Under the pieces are notes generated by a model. It was not told the origin of the DNA. It saw nothing but the letters and a program-made list of their open reading frames with translations, and searched no databases. A stretch of 64,000 bases of DNA from Arthrobacter sp. UKPF54-2 (lineage in GTDB: Bacteria > Actinomycetota > Actinomycetes > Actinomycetales > Micrococcaceae): assembly GCF_007858535.1 (NCBI RefSeq), contig NZ_CP040174.1:1488001-1552000 (forward strand), written 5' to 3'. Both the position numbers and the translations under genes were made by a program. Of the stretch, positions 39,559 to 46,242 are shown piece after piece (position 1 is the stretch's first letter; each line of letters opens with the position of its first letter).

Positions 39559-40077
39559 TTACCCGGGTTGGGTTTCCTGGTCCTTGTTGCCCTGGGCCTT
39601 GTTCCGCACCGGGTGCTGGCTGACGATCGAGACGCGGTTGAAGGCGTTCATGGTGATGGCGAGCCAGCTGATCGCGGAGAACTCGGTGTCGGTGAGGTGC
39701 CTGCGCGCCCGGCCTCCTTCGTGCTCGCGGGCCTCGGCATCGGAGATGTTGGTGATCGCTTCGGCGAGGGTCAGGGCGGCCCGTTCCCTTTCGCTGAAAA
39801 GGTTGGTGTCGCGCCAGGCCGGGAGTACAGCCAGGCGCTGGGCTGATTCACCGTTCTTGACCGCGTCGCCCACGTGCAGGTCGAGGCAGAAGGCGCAGCC
39901 GTTGATTTGCGAGATGCGGACGTTCAGCAGCTCGATCAGCGCCTGGTCCAGCCCTGCCTCCTCCGCGGCTTCCTTGGCTTTCAGGCCGAGGCCATTAAGC
40001 GCACGCCACGCGGCGGGGTGCGCCTTGTCCAGGAAAACGCTTCGGGTGCTGTGCTCGGGTGCCGGAGTCTCATCCAT
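39559..40077 (-). CDS. carboxymuconolactone decarboxylase family (AhpD-like) protein
   Basis: This 172-residue protein has the AhpD/CMD helical core with the active-site pair in NGCAFCLDLH and ALTLAEAITNI. CxxC plus histidine points to an alkylhydroperoxidase-like peroxidase function. ATG 40077 is chosen: the upstream Arg/Trp-rich extension is unlike the family and runs through the promoter area. A set of TTGTCA/TGACAA half-sites lies just upstream, suggesting a redox- or TetR-type switch. Confidence 0.85.
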   Translation of the reverse strand: MDETPAPEHSTRSVFLDKAHPAAWRALNGLGLKAKEAAEEAGLDQALIELLNVRISQINGCAFCLDLHVGDAVKNGESAQRLAVLPAWRDTNLFSERERAALTLAEAITNISDAEAREHEGGRARRHLTDTEFSAISWLAITMNAFNRVSIVSQHPVRNKAQGNKDQETQPG

Positions 40078-40123
40078 GAGTCCCAGATTACAGAGGTCCG
40101 GCCACCCTTGCCCGCGCGGCATG

Positions 40124-40234: not shown

Positions 40235-41221
40235 TCAGGACGGCGCGCACGCAATGTGGGCCAGTCGCGAACCGGCCGCCACCATGGCATCAGCGTCGCT
40301 GGCCACGATCACGCCCGTAAAGTTGTCCGCGTAGTCGCCGAGGTCCTCGTGGATGGAACCGACGACGGCGTAGACCGGCGTGGTGCCGCTCCGTGCCAGG
40401 ATGGCGGCAATGATCTTGCCCTGGCCCGTCTGGGAGTCCAGCCGGCCCTCGCCCACCACCACCGCGCTGCTGGCGGCGGCGTGCGCGTCGAAGCCGAGCA
40501 GGTCCAGGACGTGGTCCGCGCCGGACACCAGCCGGGCGCCGTATTTCGCCCACATGCCACCGGAGAAGCCGCCGGCGGCCCCGGTGCGGTCCACCGGGCG
40601 GGGATCGCGCCCCAGTTCCCGAACAAACCCGTCCGCCAGGGCGTCGAGGCGCCGCGTGAGGGCCTCCACCGTGGCGGGGTCGGCGCCCTTCTGCGGGCCG
40701 AAGACCCGGGCGGCGTCGGCGAAGCGGGTCGTCACGTCGCTGAGGACCACCACCTCGGCGCCGTCGAGGCCGCCGCGTTCCTCAATCGCGGCGATGGCCC
40801 CCGCCCCGCCGTCGGTGGTGGCGGAGCCGCCGGCGGCCACCAGCAGGAGCCGCGCCCCGAGCCGGACGGCTTCCGCCATCATCACCCCGGTGCCGTAGGT
40901 GCTGGCCCGGACGGGGTCCCGGTCCCCGGCGGTGGGCAGGTTCAGTCCGCTGGCAAAGGCGAGCTCGATGACGGCGGTGCCGTCCGGCGCCAGCGCGACC
41001 ACGGCGTCGACGTCGTCGCCCCAGGGGCCCACCGTGCGGACCCGCACGGGCCGGGCGTCGAGTCCCCGGACCAGCACCTCGAAGGTTCCCTCGCCGCCGT
41101 CGGCCACGGGAAGTTCGACGGCGGACGCCCCGGCAACCCGGATTCCGGCGGCGATGTGGGCGGCGACGTCGGCGGCCGTGAAGGTGCCCTTGAAGCTGTC
41201 CGGGGCGACGAGGATGCTCAC
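40235..41221 (-). CDS. glycerate kinase (DSFKGT type)
   Basis: This protein has about 328 residues and opens with the GlxK-type signature LVAPDSFKGTFTAADVAAHI. The active-site region includes VADGGEGTFEVLV and LLLVAAGGSATTDGGAGAI. ATP-dependent phosphorylation of D-glycerate is the family reaction. GTG 41221 is chosen because it follows four bases after the stop of the BKACE gene and fits the family start VSILVAPDS. In this operon it would phosphorylate glycerate freed by the upstream cleavage enzyme. Confidence 0.9.
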   Translation of the reverse strand: MSILVAPDSFKGTFTAADVAAHIAAGIRVAGASAVELPVADGGEGTFEVLVRGLDARPVRVRTVGPWGDDVDAVVALAPDGTAVIELAFASGLNLPTAGDRDPVRASTYGTGVMMAEAVRLGARLLLVAAGGSATTDGGAGAIAAIEERGGLDGAEVVVLSDVTTRFADAARVFGPQKGADPATVEALTRRLDALADGFVRELGRDPRPVDRTGAAGGFSGGMWAKYGARLVSGADHVLDLLGFDAHAAASSAVVVGEGRLDSQTGQGKIIAAILARSGTTPVYAVVGSIHEDLGDYADNFTGVIVASDADAMVAAGSRLAHIACAPS

Positions 41222-41225
41222 CGGC

Positions 41226-42158
41226 CTAGAATCCCACCTTGTCGCGGCCCTTGAGCTGCAGCATTTCGCGGGCTTCATCGGGGGTGGCGATCTCGAAGTT
41301 CAGCGCCTCGAGGATGGTGCGGATCCGGGTGACCTGCTGGGCGTTGGAGGTGGCGAGCTGGCCGGGGCCGATCCAGAGTGAGTCCTCCAAGCCCACGCGG
41401 ACGTGGGAGCCCATGGCCGCGCCGATCGTGGCGAGCGGCATCTGGTTCTTGCCGGCGCCCAGGATGGACCACTGATAGTCGTCGCCCAGCAGCCGGTCTG
41501 CGGTGCGGCGCATGTGCATCAGGTCTTCGGGGTGGGCGCCGATCCCGCCGAGCAGGCCGAAGACGGACTGCACGAACAGCGGGCCGCGGGCCAGGCCGCG
41601 CGCGTGGAAGTGGGCCAGGTTGTTCAGGTGCGAGATGTCGTAGCACTCGAACTCGAACCGGGTGCCGTTCTCGTTGCCGATGCCGAGGATGGTCTCGATG
41701 TCCTGGAAGGTGTTCTTAAAGACCAGATCGCGGCTCTTCTCGAGGCCCTCGCGCTCCCACTCGTGGCCGAACTCCGTGAACCGGTCCAGCATCGGGTACA
41801 GGCCGAAGTTCATCGAGCCCATGTTCAGGGAGGCCAGCTCGGGCTTGAACAGGGCGGCCGGCTGCATCCGCTCCTCCACGCTCATGTGCGGGGAGCCGCC
41901 GGTGGTGATGTTGATGACGGCGTCAGTGTTGCGCTTGAGCTTGTCCAGGATCGGGGCGAAGTGCTCCGGGTCCTGGGAGGGCCGGCCGTCCTTGGGGTCG
42001 CGGGCGTGCATGTGCACAATCGCGGCGCCGGCCTCGGCGGCGCCGATCGCGGCGTCGGCGATCTCGTCCGGGGAGACCGGCAGGTGCGGGGACATGGACG
42101 GGGTATGGATGGCGCCGGTGACGGCGCTGGTGATGATGACTTTGCGTGCGGCAGCCAT
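41226..42158 (-). CDS. beta-keto acid cleavage enzyme (BKACE, DUF849)
   Basis: This 310-residue TIM-barrel enzyme has the zinc-binding VHMHARD motif near residue 50 and the family opening VIITSAVTGAIHTPSMSP. BKACE enzymes condense a beta-keto acid with acetyl-CoA to give acetoacetate and a new acyl-CoA. Other conserved segments are NITTGGSPHMSVEERM and GARFWIM-independent SLNMGSMNFG. Its neighbours are a beta-position SDR and glycerate kinase, so the substrate is probably a four- to five-carbon sugar-acid beta-keto derivative. Confidence 0.88.
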   Translation of the reverse strand: MAAARKVIITSAVTGAIHTPSMSPHLPVSPDEIADAAIGAAEAGAAIVHMHARDPKDGRPSQDPEHFAPILDKLKRNTDAVINITTGGSPHMSVEERMQPAALFKPELASLNMGSMNFGLYPMLDRFTEFGHEWEREGLEKSRDLVFKNTFQDIETILGIGNENGTRFEFECYDISHLNNLAHFHARGLARGPLFVQSVFGLLGGIGAHPEDLMHMRRTADRLLGDDYQWSILGAGKNQMPLATIGAAMGSHVRVGLEDSLWIGPGQLATSNAQQVTRIRTILEALNFEIATPDEAREMLQLKGRDKVGF

Positions 42159-42178
42159 GGGGGCAGCTCCTTCGGGGC

Positions 42179-42943
42179 TCAGTAAAGCTTTTCGGTGTTG
42201 CCGTCGACGGCGAGGGCCTGGCCGTTGACGTTGCGGGCGAGGTCGCTCGCGGCGAAGGCGGCCATGTTCGCGATGTCCTCGGCCTCGATCAGCCGGCCCA
42301 GGGACGACTGGTTGTGGTATAGCTCGGAGACCTGCTCGGCCGGCAGGTCCAGCATCTGCGCTTTGGCGGCGATGACGGCGTCGATCCGGGGGCCGTTGAC
42401 GGCACCGGGGCAGATCGCGTTGACCCGGATCCGGTCAGGACCCAGCTCGATCGCGAGGGTCTTGGTCAGCCCGATCACGGCCCACTTGGACGCCGAATAG
42501 GCGCTGCGCCCGGCCATGCCAAGCCGGCCGGCCGCGGAGGAGAGGTTCACGATCGAGGCGCCGGTGCCCTGGCGGAGCAGGGGCAGGGCGTGCTTGATGC
42601 AATAGAACTGGCCGTGGATGTTGACGTCGAAGGTGGCCTTCCAGGCGGCGGCGTCGAGGGTCTCCAGCGGGCCGGTGGGCCCGGCGATGCCGGCGTTGTT
42701 GACCAGCACGTCCAGGCCGCCGAGTTTCTCGGCCACCGTGGCCATGAGTTCGCGGACCTGGGCCTCGTCGGAGACGTCGCTGACCGCGGCCGCGAGGCCG
42801 TTGACGCGGGCCTTTTCGACGGCGTCGGGGTCAATGTCGGTGACGAAGACGGCGGCGCCGAGTTCCTGGAACTTCTTGGCGATGGCCAAGCCGATGCCGT
42901 TGGCGCCGGCGGTCACCAGGACGCGCTTTGCGGTGAAATCCAT
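42179..42943 (-). CDS. SDR-family dehydrogenase
   Basis: This 254-residue protein has the classical SDR motifs: cofactor site TAGANGIGLAI, NNAG in VLVNNAGIAGP, catalytic Ser in IVNLSSAAG and YxxxK in YSASKWAVIG. The preferred cofactor is NAD, judged from the acidic residue in VTDIDPD after strand 2. In this operon it probably oxidises the hydroxy acid to the beta-keto acid used by the BKACE. ATG 42943 has AAGGA seven bases upstream. Confidence 0.9.
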   Translation of the reverse strand: MDFTAKRVLVTAGANGIGLAIAKKFQELGAAVFVTDIDPDAVEKARVNGLAAAVSDVSDEAQVRELMATVAEKLGGLDVLVNNAGIAGPTGPLETLDAAAWKATFDVNIHGQFYCIKHALPLLRQGTGASIVNLSSAAGRLGMAGRSAYSASKWAVIGLTKTLAIELGPDRIRVNAICPGAVNGPRIDAVIAAKAQMLDLPAEQVSELYHNQSSLGRLIEAEDIANMAAFAASDLARNVNGQALAVDGNTEKLY

Positions 42944-43026
42944 GGGGTAGTCCTTGCTGTGGTGGTTCGGGGTGCCGCTCCGCCGGCGCGCAGGGCGCCG
43001 GCGGAGCGGCAGGGGTGGCGGAGGCC

Positions 43027-44346
43027 CTAGTGGGCGGCCGGAACGCCGTCGGGCTTTTCCGTGCCGCGCTTGAGCATGAGCGAGAGCAGCGCGCCGAGGA
43101 TGCACATGCCCACGATGAACCAGAGCCCGGAGAGCTTGGAGCCGGTGGCATCCTGCATCATGCCCATCACGTACGGGCCGAGGAAGCCGCCGCAGAGGCC
43201 GATGGTGTTGACGAAGGCGATGCCGCCGGCGAGGGCGGCTCCGGTGAGCCGGGTGGCCGGGTAGGTGAAGAGGATCGGCTGCAGGGCGAAGAAGTTGAAG
43301 GCCGCGAGGCAGAAGCCGATCATGCCCAGGAGGGGACCGCCGACGGCGCCGAGGGCGAAGCCGGAGACGATGCCGATCATCGTTCCCGTGACCAGCAGGC
43401 GGGAGCGCCGGCCGTCGGTGGCGAACCGGGGAATCAGCAGGGCGCCGGCGGCGGAGAAGATCCACGGGATGGCCGTCAGGAGGCCGATCTGCAGCGGGTT
43501 GAGCTTGCCGTACGTGCCGATGATCGACGGGAGGAAGTAGGACAGGGCGTACACGGCGATCTGGTGGGTGAAGTAGATACCGACCACCAGGAGGATCTGC
43601 TTGTCCTTGAGGATGTCGCGGAGGCGGTGGTTGCCGGACGCTTCAGCGCCGGCCTTCTCCTCGGCGGCGATGCGGGCCTCGAGGTCCGTGGCTTCCTCGG
43701 CGGTGAGGAACTTGGCCTGGGTGGGACGGTCCGGGAGCTTCTTCCAGACGACGTAGGCCAGGAGGCAGGCGGGCAGGCCCTCGATGATGAACATCCACTG
43801 CCAGCCGTGCAGGCCGCCGAAGCCGTCCAGGGTCAGCAGCAGTCCGCCCAGCGGTGCGCCGACAATGTTGGCGATGGAGACGCCCAGCAGGAACATGCCG
43901 TTGGCCTTGGCGCGGTCTTTCACAACGAACCACTGGGTCAGGAAGTACATCACGCCGGGGAAGAGCCCGGCCTCGGCGACGCCGAGCAGCATCCGCATGA
44001 TGTAGAAGGACCATTCGCCCTGCACGAAGGCCATGCAGGCGGAGATGATGCCCCAGGTGATCATGATCCGCATGATCCAGAAGCGCGCGCCGACCTTGTG
44101 CATGATCAGGTTGGACGGGATCTCGGAGAGGGCATAGGTCAGGAAGAACAGGCCGGCGCCGATGCCGTAGGCGGTGGCGGAGATACCGAGGTCAATCTCC
44201 AGGCGGTCCTTGGCCATACCGATGTTGGTGCGGTCCAGGAACGCCATGATGTAGGCGCCGATCAGCAGCGGCATAACGCGGCGGAGGATCACGCCGTTTA
44301 TTTCCTGCGGTGTACGCATCTTCGTTGGTGCGGATACAACTGACAT
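43027..44346 (-). CDS. MFS transporter, anion:cation symporter family
   Basis: This 439-residue transporter has 12 helices. The opening RRVMPLLIGAYIMAFLDRTN and AKDRLEIDLGIS, plus EIPSNLIMHKVGARFWIMR, match the ACS family that imports sugar acids and other organic anions. It is the second gene of the catabolic operon and likely supplies its substrate. It lies 127 bases downstream of the lacI gene. Confidence 0.9.
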   Translation of the reverse strand: MSVVSAPTKMRTPQEINGVILRRVMPLLIGAYIMAFLDRTNIGMAKDRLEIDLGISATAYGIGAGLFFLTYALSEIPSNLIMHKVGARFWIMRIMITWGIISACMAFVQGEWSFYIMRMLLGVAEAGLFPGVMYFLTQWFVVKDRAKANGMFLLGVSIANIVGAPLGGLLLTLDGFGGLHGWQWMFIIEGLPACLLAYVVWKKLPDRPTQAKFLTAEEATDLEARIAAEEKAGAEASGNHRLRDILKDKQILLVVGIYFTHQIAVYALSYFLPSIIGTYGKLNPLQIGLLTAIPWIFSAAGALLIPRFATDGRRSRLLVTGTMIGIVSGFALGAVGGPLLGMIGFCLAAFNFFALQPILFTYPATRLTGAALAGGIAFVNTIGLCGGFLGPYVMGMMQDATGSKLSGLWFIVGMCILGALLSLMLKRGTEKPDGVPAAH

Positions 44347-44473
44347 GGGTCTTCGTCCTTGAATTGGGTCAGGGTTGATGGTCAGGGTGGCAGCGGGCAG
44401 CGCGGTGGAAGCCCTTGACGCAGCGGATGCGCTTGGTGCTGGTGTTTAGGGTGGTGCGGGGTGGTGCGGGGTG

Positions 44474-45532
44474 TCAGGGAAGGGCGGGGGAGCAGCCGCA
44501 GGTGCGGCCGATATGGAGGCGGTGCCGGCACACCCGGGAGGTGTAGCTGCCGGACGGGGTCTCGATGCGTTTGAGCAGCATGGCGAAGGCCTCGTGGGCC
44601 ATTTCCTGCTGCGGCTGGACAATGCTGGTCAGGTTGATCAGCCCGGAGCGGCTGTGCGGCAGGCCGTCGCAGCCGGCCACGGCCACGTCCTCCGGGATCC
44701 GCAGACCCCGAGCCAGGGCGTACTCCATGACGCCGATGGCGAGCTCGTCGCTGCCGCAGACCACTGCCTGCGGCGGTGTTCCGGAGGCGAAGAGGCGTTC
44801 CGCGGCCAGCCGGCCGCCCTCGTTGTTGACCCGCGTGCTGATCTTCCGGTCCCCGCTGATGACGACGCCGGCAGCGGCCGCCGTCCGCACGAAGGCCTGT
44901 TCCCGGGCCAGCGATGCGGTGGAGAAGCGGGGCCCGATCACGGTGGCGATCTCGGTGTAGCCGTGGCCGAGCATGTGCTGCATCAGCAGCGTGGCCGCGG
45001 CGTCGTCGTCGATCCCCACGAAGTCGGAGTCGAGGAAGTCGGCCCGGCGGGACAGGCAGACGTAGGGGGTCCGGGCGGCCCGCAGGGTGCGGAGGGCGCG
45101 GGCGTCGTCCCGGAGCGAGGCGGCGAGGATGACGCCGTCCACGTTGCGGTTCGCCAGCGTCGCCGTGACCTGGGCGAGGATTTCCGGGTCGTCCTGGGTG
45201 GTGGCGACGAAGACCTCGTAGCCGGAGTCTGCTGCCGCCGAAATGATGCCCTGGGCCCAGCGCGGGAACATCGGGTTGATGATGTTCGGCAGGATCAGGC
45301 CGATCACGCGGGTGCGCTGCAGGTCGGTGGACTGGGAGGACTTACGTGGCCTGAAGCCAAGTTCGTTCGCCACGTGGATGATGTGGCGCCGGGTCTCGGG
45401 GGAGACGCCGCCTTTGCCGTTGAGCACGTAGGACACGGCAGCGGAGGAGACTCCCGCCGCCCGGGCCACGGCCGCCGCGGAAACCGTGGCAACAGGGCCG
45501 TCGGCGGCAACAGTCGTGGCTTGCTCCTGCAT
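44474..45532 (-). CDS. LacI-family transcriptional regulator
   Basis: This 352-residue regulator has an N-terminal LacI HTH (VSAAAVARAAGVSSAAVSYV, then LNGKGGVSPETRRHI). A periplasmic-binding-protein-like ligand domain follows, with IGLILPNIINPMFPRWAQGI. It is the first gene of the catabolic operon, so it may autoregulate through operator-like palindromes just upstream. Ligand is presumably the imported acid or an intermediate. Confidence 0.9.
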   Translation of the reverse strand: MQEQATTVAADGPVATVSAAAVARAAGVSSAAVSYVLNGKGGVSPETRRHIIHVANELGFRPRKSSQSTDLQRTRVIGLILPNIINPMFPRWAQGIISAAADSGYEVFVATTQDDPEILAQVTATLANRNVDGVILAASLRDDARALRTLRAARTPYVCLSRRADFLDSDFVGIDDDAAATLLMQHMLGHGYTEIATVIGPRFSTASLAREQAFVRTAAAAGVVISGDRKISTRVNNEGGRLAAERLFASGTPPQAVVCGSDELAIGVMEYALARGLRIPEDVAVAGCDGLPHSRSGLINLTSIVQPQQEMAHEAFAMLLKRIETPSGSYTSRVCRHRLHIGRTCGCSPALP

Positions 45533-45569
45533 TCTGACCCTCCTTCGCGTCGGTTTCTCCCGCTGTGAC

Positions 45570-45610
45570 CTCAGTTACAGTACTGAGCGCGCCGAACGTT
45601 AAGCAACGTT
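45570..45610. promoter_or_regulatory. operator-like palindromes upstream of the LacI operon
   Basis: CTCAGT-TACAGT-ACTGAG is a perfect inverted repeat at 45570-45587. Two AACGTT palindromes follow at 45595 and 45605, ten bases apart, one helical turn. LacI operators usually have a central CG, as AACGTT does. The region is the upstream control area of the lacI-led operon. Confidence 0.5.
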
Positions 45611-45904
45611 AAGTGTTTTGGTGGTGCGGTATGTGGTTCCGGCGCCTTGACCGACGGACATGCCCATCCTCGGGCGCGGCACGGGCTTGGTCTCGGGTTA
45701 GTTGCCGGCGGGAGCGGGCGCGGCTCGGTTGCGGCTCGGGTGCGGCTGGGCGAGGCGGGTGAAGCCTGGGTTGATCGCGGCTTGGTGGCGGACTGGATAG
45801 GCGGGCTCAGAGCAGCGGTGGCCGAATTCCGGTCCTAGCTCCGCTGGACATGCCCATCCTCGGGTTCGCCCAGCGGACATATTCGGATTATGTGCACTCG
45901 TCGG

Positions 45905-46168
45905 CTCGAACGATGGGCACGCCCATTGGCGCGAAGAGTGGCCAGCGGGCATGTCCAACGCCACGCGCGAACGATGGGCATGCCCGCAAGCGGTAAGGGC
46001 TGCCAGCGGGCATGTCCAACGCCGCGCGCGAAGGATGGGCATGTCCGTTGGTGCGAAGAGTGGGCGACGGGCATGCTCAGTATTCCGCGCGAAGGATGGG
46101 CATGTCCGTTGGTGCGAAGAGTGGGCGACGGGCATGCTCAGTATTCCGCGCGAAGGATGGGCATGTCC
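45905..46168. repeat. 61-bp tandem repeat array
   Basis: The box GATGGGCAYGYCC starts at 45912, 45973, 46034, 46095 and 46156, always 61 bases apart. A second box, GGGCATG preceded by GCG or ACG, recurs about 33 bases into each unit. The last two complete units (from 46034) are identical, and the earlier ones are diverged. GGGCATGTCC has a palindrome-like core. The array is minisatellite-like (MIRU/VNTR-like), and homogenisation toward the clpB side indicates recent unit duplication. Confidence 0.85.
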
Positions 46169-46242
46169 GGAAGTGCAGCGGTCCGGCCCTAGACAGCAGT
46201 TTCGCCGTGGGCAAACATGGACCAAAAGGGGCCGGATGCAAA

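Follow-up and report, generated by a model that had tools for sequence, protein, structure and literature searches.

A five-gene operon of Arthrobacter sp. UKPF54-2 very probably constitutes a LacI-controlled set for growth on 2-deoxy-D-ribonate. We analyzed 64,000 nt of contig NZ_CP040174.1 (the window), which is part of the single 3.52-Mb contig of this genome (G000). The operon spans positions 45532-40235 and encodes, all on the minus strand, a LacI-family regulator, a major facilitator superfamily (MFS) permease, a short-chain dehydrogenase/reductase (SDR), a beta-keto acid cleavage enzyme (BKACE) and a glycerate kinase, separated in that order by 127, 83, 23 and 4 nt. The five genes, their order and their common strand had been put forward in an original prediction made from the sequence alone, and the open reading frames (ORFs) together with Pfam and NCBIfam matches bear them out:

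44474..45532, minus strand: LacI-family regulator (PF00356 and Peripla_BP), linked in 31 of 33 Arthrobacter clusters
43027..44346, minus strand: MFS permease, putative deoxyribonate importer (PF07690, MFS_1)
42182..42943, minus strand: SDR, putative 2-deoxy-D-ribonate 3-dehydrogenase (PF13561 and PF00106; S...YxxxK motif; two-way best match of BKACE-linked SDRs)
41226..42158, minus strand: BKACE, putative 2-deoxy-3-keto-D-ribonate cleavage enzyme (PF05853)
40235..41221, minus strand: glycerate kinase (PF02595; TIGR00045 at 226.4 bits against a cut-off of 168.45), present in 22 of 33 Arthrobacter clusters

The BKACE matched PF05853 over the whole profile (1-274 of 274; 372.6 bits, cut-off 24.8), making it a member of the family, and was the sole BKACE found in a search of the genome. 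The best NCBIfam relatives of the permease, TIGR00893 and HpaX, both scored under cut-off; the protein is 55-58% identical to MFS permeases adjoining SDR-BKACE pairs in Burkholderia, Caballeronia and Delftia. The glycerate kinase ORF as listed begins at 41278 and overlaps the BKACE gene; its likely start is the GTG at 41221, 4 nt past the BKACE stop.

From this gene content we infer the following route, including its substrate and stereochemistry. The permease would import 2-deoxy-D-ribonate and the SDR would oxidize the 3-hydroxyl with NAD(P)+ to yield 2-deoxy-3-keto-ribonate, which BKACE and acetyl-CoA would cleave to acetoacetate and D-glyceryl-CoA. D-glycerate would be released from the CoA ester and converted by glycerate kinase to phosphoglycerate, a step already part of the original prediction; the in-operon PF02595/TIGR00045 kinase fits the predicted three-carbon product. 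Enzymes encoded outside the operon would activate acetoacetate and thiolyse it to acetyl-CoA. LacI would repress from a site, CTTAACGTTGCTTAA, before its own gene, and a CRP-type protein would add catabolite control.

The logic of the operon had been likened to the deoxyribonate route of Pseudomonas simiae, and it matches the account of that route in Price et al. 2019 (PMC6365646), with SDR two-way best matches in agreement. Mutant fitness data reported there assign a role in deoxyribonate use by P. simiae to an SDR, a BKACE, glycerate kinase and thiolase. The passages on these clusters also describe a palindrome, GTGATCAC, before the GntR gene, a Paraburkholderia bryophila cluster of AraC, BKACE, transporter, hydroxyacyl-CoA dehydrogenase and SDR genes, and enzymes that are 50-60% identical between species. 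We recognized counterparts of the published clusters by gene order, the GTGATCAC operator and identity, and for the SDR also by two-way best matches. Caballeronia grimmiae has the order GntR-SDR-BKACE-lactonase. Upstream of GntR genes at least 65% identical and with upstream sequence present, GTGATCAC was found in 27 of 28 loci (the miss is L204), a tally that sets aside 15 short loci ending before the site and counts at least one genome twice (L084, L229); before more distant GntR genes it was found in 16 of 33 rows. A second type has the order AraC-BKACE-MFS-SDR (L277 and L284), with a further SDR in L278 and another gene standing before the SDR in L279. The order of L278 is that of P. bryophila if the hydroxyacyl-CoA dehydrogenase of the paper is the FabG-like SDR of L278. 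Between the GntR and AraC types, identity is about 58% for SDR and BKACE alike, within the published 50-60%. The window BKACE is 71-74% identical to the GntR/GTGATCAC type and 56% to the AraC type, and the window SDR is 50% identical to both.

Orthology of the SDR supports the link. With the window SDR as query, the best match was adjacent to a BKACE gene or no more than about 2.5 kb away from one in all 17 Paraburkholderia-group genomes, each of which has 34 to 153 SDR candidates. Leaving aside two further places of about 200 bits (G274:C83 and G287:C176), matches away from BKACE reached at most 141 bits. In the reverse search, the Caballeronia SDR retrieved the operon SDR first in all nine Arthrobacter genomes having one (218-236 bits, next match at most 128); the tenth genome, G144, has no operon SDR and gave no match. 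Two features expected from the work of Price et al. are present: an SDR orthologue linked to BKACE through clusters of the published type, and a glycerate kinase (PF02595 and TIGR00045), here inside the operon. The window SDR and BKACE are probably the counterparts of the deoxyribonate-oxidation enzymes of Pseudomonas and Paraburkholderia. An alanine in place of glycine in the SDR cofactor motif was considered as a family mark and rejected. It is present in 82 of 116 readable members (117 in all); among 62 other SDRs the position is glycine in 44, valine or lysine (likely misread) in three and unreadable in 15, with no alanine. The motif is only a hint because group-1 Burkholderia SDRs have glycine and because the classes were set by identity. 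The SDR of Pseudomonas sp. MPC6 (L016), with no BKACE in its stretch, was likewise dropped from the argument.

The association recurs across the genus. Among 206 Arthrobacter genomes, the window's included, 33 encode a BKACE with 89% identity or more across the matched part; neighborhoods were read for all 33, two of them via contigs (L032 and L033), and that of A. pascens (G036) also whole as L035. These clusters contain lacI in 31 cases, an SDR gene directly upstream of BKACE in 30, an MFS gene in 25 and a glycerate kinase gene in 22, a co-occurrence that argues against chance. The window order, lacI-MFS-SDR-BKACE-glycerate kinase, is found in 18 clusters, the same order without glycerate kinase in four and lacI-SDR-BKACE in five. 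A. pascens has lacI-MFS-SDR-BKACE-ScoA-ScoB-thiolase-glycerate kinase-PaaY-like, and G004 has this cluster minus MFS. Two genomes (G144 and G019, the latter split over two contigs) have HADH-like-PaaY-like-lacI-MFS-BKACE-glycerate kinase and no SDR, HADH-like denoting a 3-hydroxyacyl-CoA-dehydrogenase-like gene; G172 has SDR-BKACE without a linked lacI, and G204 has BKACE alone. One further Arthrobacter, G223, was left out of the tally, its BKACE (L159) being 51% identical; this BKACE adjoins its own ScoA/ScoB pair, with no SDR of the operon family close by, and probably serves another beta-keto acid route. A scan of named genome contigs, limited to the best 80 of at least 578 confirmed relatives, placed the nearest relative (BKACE 99% identical) on an Arthrobacter contig and recovered lacI-MFS-SDR-BKACE in Leucobacter sp. 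G161, Saccharopolyspora oryzae and S. indica. Among the same 80, S. rhizosphaerae has MFS-BKACE-HADH-LacI and no SDR, an Actinomycetospora has BKACE and only a distant LacI, and a Pseudonocardia has BKACE alone.

Two sites precede lacI in the window:

45599..45613, minus strand: putative LacI operator CTTAACGTTGCTTAA (14-mer core 45599-45612), conserved before lacI
45564..45579, minus strand: CRP/GlxR-like site TGTAACTGAGGTCACA, adjoining the lacI operator

The operator recurs within one mismatch in all 34 scored loci whose lacI is at least 60% identical, among them Leucobacter and two Saccharopolyspora, at 72-102 nt before the estimated lacI start; L037 and L078, with a more distant LacI, were left out of the scoring. 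It appeared in none of 200 shuffles of each upstream region. This conserved operator before lacI in actinobacterial loci is new in this analysis. Across 22 whole genomes, the 14-mer at up to one mismatch gave 26 matches in 20 genomes, compared with two for a reversed control; G172 and G204, which gave none, are also the two of the 22 that lack a linked lacI. The window's own 3.52-Mb genome contains exactly one match, and none to the reversed control. Twenty of the 26 matches are the lacI sites themselves; the other six lie in G004 (three), G154 (two) and G144 (one). In G004, two fall between divergently oriented HADH-like and hydroxypyruvate-reductase-like genes, at distances of about 320 and 430 nt from the two starts; the third precedes, by about 360 nt, an MFS gene whose likeness to the window's was judged by eye. 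The G144 match lies upstream of the HADH-like and PaaY-like genes of that genome, at a distance of about 210 nt. An FMN-dependent lactate-dehydrogenase-like gene comes after the hydroxypyruvate-reductase-like gene in G004 (L270, 3146-7363). The HADH-like, hydroxypyruvate-reductase-like and FMN-dehydrogenase-like genes of L270 are possible further members of a regulon, and the operator apparently tags a LacI regulon whose permease gene, or a second dehydrogenase gene, can sit away from the rest. The regulon reading is only suggestive because the distances are longer than at lacI.

The adjoining site TGTAACTGAGGTCACA is presumably of CRP/GlxR type, TGTGA-N6-TCACA being what we take to be the CRP consensus. 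The pattern TGTRA-N6-TCACA has one match in the window, where 0.07 are expected. At the position of TGTAACTGAGGTCACA, 27 of the 34 loci come within one mismatch of TGTGA-N6-TCACA and 31, all Arthrobacter, within two; the three non-Arthrobacter loci have 3-4 mismatches and do not show the site. Binding of LacI and of a CRP-type protein to these sites is a prediction, as is the inducer.

The BKACE phylogeny bears on the origin of the operon. In the finished tree of 114 rows, among which the published P. simiae and P. bryophila proteins do not figure, nine actinobacterial rows fall on one side of a branch with support of 100/98, the root not being fixed. A quick tree places the actinobacterial rows among Burkholderiales with SDR, HADH and GntR neighbors, 46 of its 114 rows carrying no context tags. 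With the root unfixed, this placement is consistent with transfer from Proteobacteria. Five Paraburkholderia-group loci (L211, L212, L215, L220 and L233) carry, 1-6 kb from a BKACE of 65-68% identity, a very divergent one of 22-26%.

Several observations count against the deoxyribonate assignment. In the open-licence PubMed Central (PMC) literature we found no actinobacterium with data on activity, growth or expression, the in vitro work described in PMC6365646 left the oxidized carbon unsettled, and the identity of our cluster types with the P. simiae and P. bryophila systems is indirect, through gene order, operator and identity. Eleven of the 33 Arthrobacter clusters have no glycerate kinase nearby, two have an HADH-like gene and no SDR, and one is a BKACE alone. 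BKACEs 72-80% identical also stand in loci with neither an SDR nor an HADH of these kinds close by (L045, L065, L197 and L198), and 54 of 182 BKACE places lack any context tag; because close BKACEs occur in other contexts, BKACE identity alone is weak evidence of role. Finally, the window BKACE matches NCBIfam NF053538, "3,5-dioxohexanoate:acetyl-CoA acetone transferase" (550.6 bits, cut-off 430). That name, the close BKACEs without SDR, and BKACE15 of Paracoccus denitrificans, which cleaves 3,5-dioxohexanoate and beta-ketohexanoate and which its authors place in aromatic degradation in the passages on its role, would suit an enzyme whose substrate is an unrelated beta-keto acid, be it 3,5-dioxohexanoate or an intermediate of aromatic or lysine type, with the glycerate kinase a bystander. 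However, NF053538 matches the deoxyribonate-type BKACEs equally, scoring 560.6 and 512.2 bits with one BKACE of each cluster type, and is well over cut-off both for the window BKACE and for three more BKACEs of SDR- or HADH-linked clusters. We rejected the name as substrate evidence since it does not discriminate; it is probably too narrow, and misleading for other genomes too. Moreover, in the quick tree L015, whose neighbors look like aromatic degradation, lies outside the actinobacterial clade, and the kinase gene, starting 4 nt past BKACE, recurs near BKACE in G450. An unrelated substrate is thus very improbable.

A closer alternative retains the route and changes the substrate to another 2-deoxyaldonate, such as 2-deoxy-D-xylonate (the C3 epimer) or some other 2-deoxypentonate, in which case deoxyribonate would be a side substrate or one among several. 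The glycerate kinase fixes only the three-carbon product and not the stereochemistry at C3, and in many relatives a second, HADH-like dehydrogenase accompanies the SDR, which would be expected if the two C3 epimers converge on a single keto acid; G144 and G019 have only the HADH-like gene in the cluster. Such pairing was met in the order of Vreelandella, where a search for a Pseudomonas representative matched six of 390 genomes; of four loci read, L240 and L241 (both G712) and L242 (G450) have SDR-HADH-BKACE and not the P. simiae lactonase order, and L243 carries no context tags. The full order in G450 is SDR-HADH-BKACE-PaaY-like-LacI-glycerate kinase. Against another substrate stand the published genetics, which name deoxyribonate for the proteobacterial counterparts (PMC6365646), and we consider it unlikely. 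The operon more likely serves deoxyribonate than deoxyribose, because all ten Arthrobacter genomes checked have deoC (split into two frames in G144), which encodes the aldolase of classical deoxyribose catabolism. That the deoxyribonate pathway was not known to be characterized in Arthrobacter-like bacteria, as the original prediction had it, agrees with the open-licence PMC literature, in which we found no such work. Searches there for BKACE with deoxyribo and Arthrobacter, or for "3-keto-5-aminohexanoate cleavage" with Arthrobacter, returned nothing, and for deoxyribonate with Arthrobacter returned PMC8551123 and PMC7387576, the relevant passages of the latter containing the word only in citing Price et al. 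2019.

The original prediction had called the operon complete. This is too strong: its five genes provide for neither CoA removal nor acetoacetate activation nor thiolysis. In P. simiae, Price et al. report finding no gene for conversion of glyceryl-CoA to glycerate or for acetoacetate activation and suspect redundancy (PMC6365646), and the GapMind paper of 2022 lists an "unknown glyceryl-CoA hydrolase" (PMC9007349). The window genome holds three CoA-transferase gene pairs and one gamma-carbonic-anhydrase/PaaY-like gene, all away from the operon; thiolase was not searched for in this genome. The earlier remark that no thioesterase or CoA-transferase is in view thus stands for the window operon but not for those of A. 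pascens and G004, which hold a CoA-transferase and thiolase followed by glycerate kinase and a PaaY-like protein. The best relatives of known structure of this CoA-transferase are succinyl-CoA:3-ketoacid transferases (SCOT type). The enzyme is an obvious candidate for transferring CoA from glyceryl-CoA onto acetoacetate, with succinyl-CoA an equally possible donor.

The PaaY protein of phenylacetate degradation is described as a thioesterase that accepts many CoA esters, acetoacetyl-CoA among them (PMC4498308); hydrolysis of acetoacetyl-CoA would waste a pathway intermediate. A PaaY-like gene follows BKACE on the same strand after about 10 nt in Vreelandella nanhaiensis and G450, and after about 160 nt in Marinobacterium profundum. 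All of 11 Arthrobacter genomes carry a PaaY-like copy outside the cluster (56-61% identity). A further copy is found within the cluster or split cluster of G004, G036, G144 and G019, and G036 has yet another, its third, elsewhere (81%). Two findings weigh against a PaaY-like thioesterase. Only four of 67 deduplicated SDR- or HADH-linked loci have the gene, a count that leaves out L055 (PaaY-like gene about 8 kb away), and the two proteins scanned fall below the NCBIfam PaaY cut-off and score equally with gamma-carbonic anhydrase. A rough chance estimate of 0.001 to 0.003 for the four loci, which is no formal test, speaks against coincidence. We tentatively suggest, while leaning somewhat against it, that a SCOT-type enzyme might free glycerate and activate acetoacetate without ATP in the A. 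pascens type, with a PaaY-like protein hydrolyzing glyceryl-CoA in other lineages. If true, this would fill the published gap of the glyceryl-CoA hydrolase. The SCOT-type CoA-transferase, thiolase and PaaY-like genes of relatives are in any case new candidates for that step, and an open step is thereby turned into named candidate genes.

Other features flank the operon. An AhpD/carboxymuconolactone-decarboxylase-like gene (window 39559-40122, minus strand) lies 3' of glycerate kinase in all 16 scored of 18 window-type loci and may merely share the locus. Between lacI and clpB (window 45650-46173) are repeats at 61-nt spacing, with four 101-nt copies in register that are 70-75% alike and GGACATGCCCATCCT elements in direct and inverted orientation; ORF translations hint at similar elements beside the operon in L032 and L033.

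Collectively, these data would extend a recently described sugar-acid pathway from Proteobacteria to Actinobacteria, with a regulator and operator of its own. According to Price et al. (PMC6365646), deoxyribonate may arise from deoxyribose, from repair of oxidized DNA or from a sugar-pathway intermediate, so the operon may mark a deoxyribonate-scavenging niche.

Compared with the P. simiae WCS417 pathway as described in PMC6365646, the window likewise has SDR, BKACE and MFS in one putative operon and glycerate kinase as the downstream step. It differs in having LacI rather than the GntR regulator, a different operator in place of GTGATCAC, no lactonase, a single MFS gene and a glycerate kinase inside the operon, which in P. 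simiae lies elsewhere with sdaR. In P. bryophila and Burkholderia phytofirmans, BKACE, transporter and SDR genes are also clustered (details are given for P. bryophila), whereas the P. bryophila cluster has an AraC regulator and an extra putative hydroxyacyl-CoA dehydrogenase; L278, taken as the P. bryophila likeness, has an SDR 50% and a BKACE 56% identical to the window's. Klebsiella michiganensis, in the same account, also converts deoxyribonate to glycerate and acetyl-CoA, and its cluster has CoA-transferase, thiolase and glycerate kinase, as in the A. pascens operon, but the CoA ester is made first, and the route described has no BKACE and no deoxyribonate dehydrogenase. BKACE15 of P. denitrificans (PDB 8RIO, 8RIP and 9HNF) belongs to the same BKACE family, with a full-length match of 446-447 bits, but in the passages on its function its authors suggest an aromatic-degradation role, with no glycerate kinase link.

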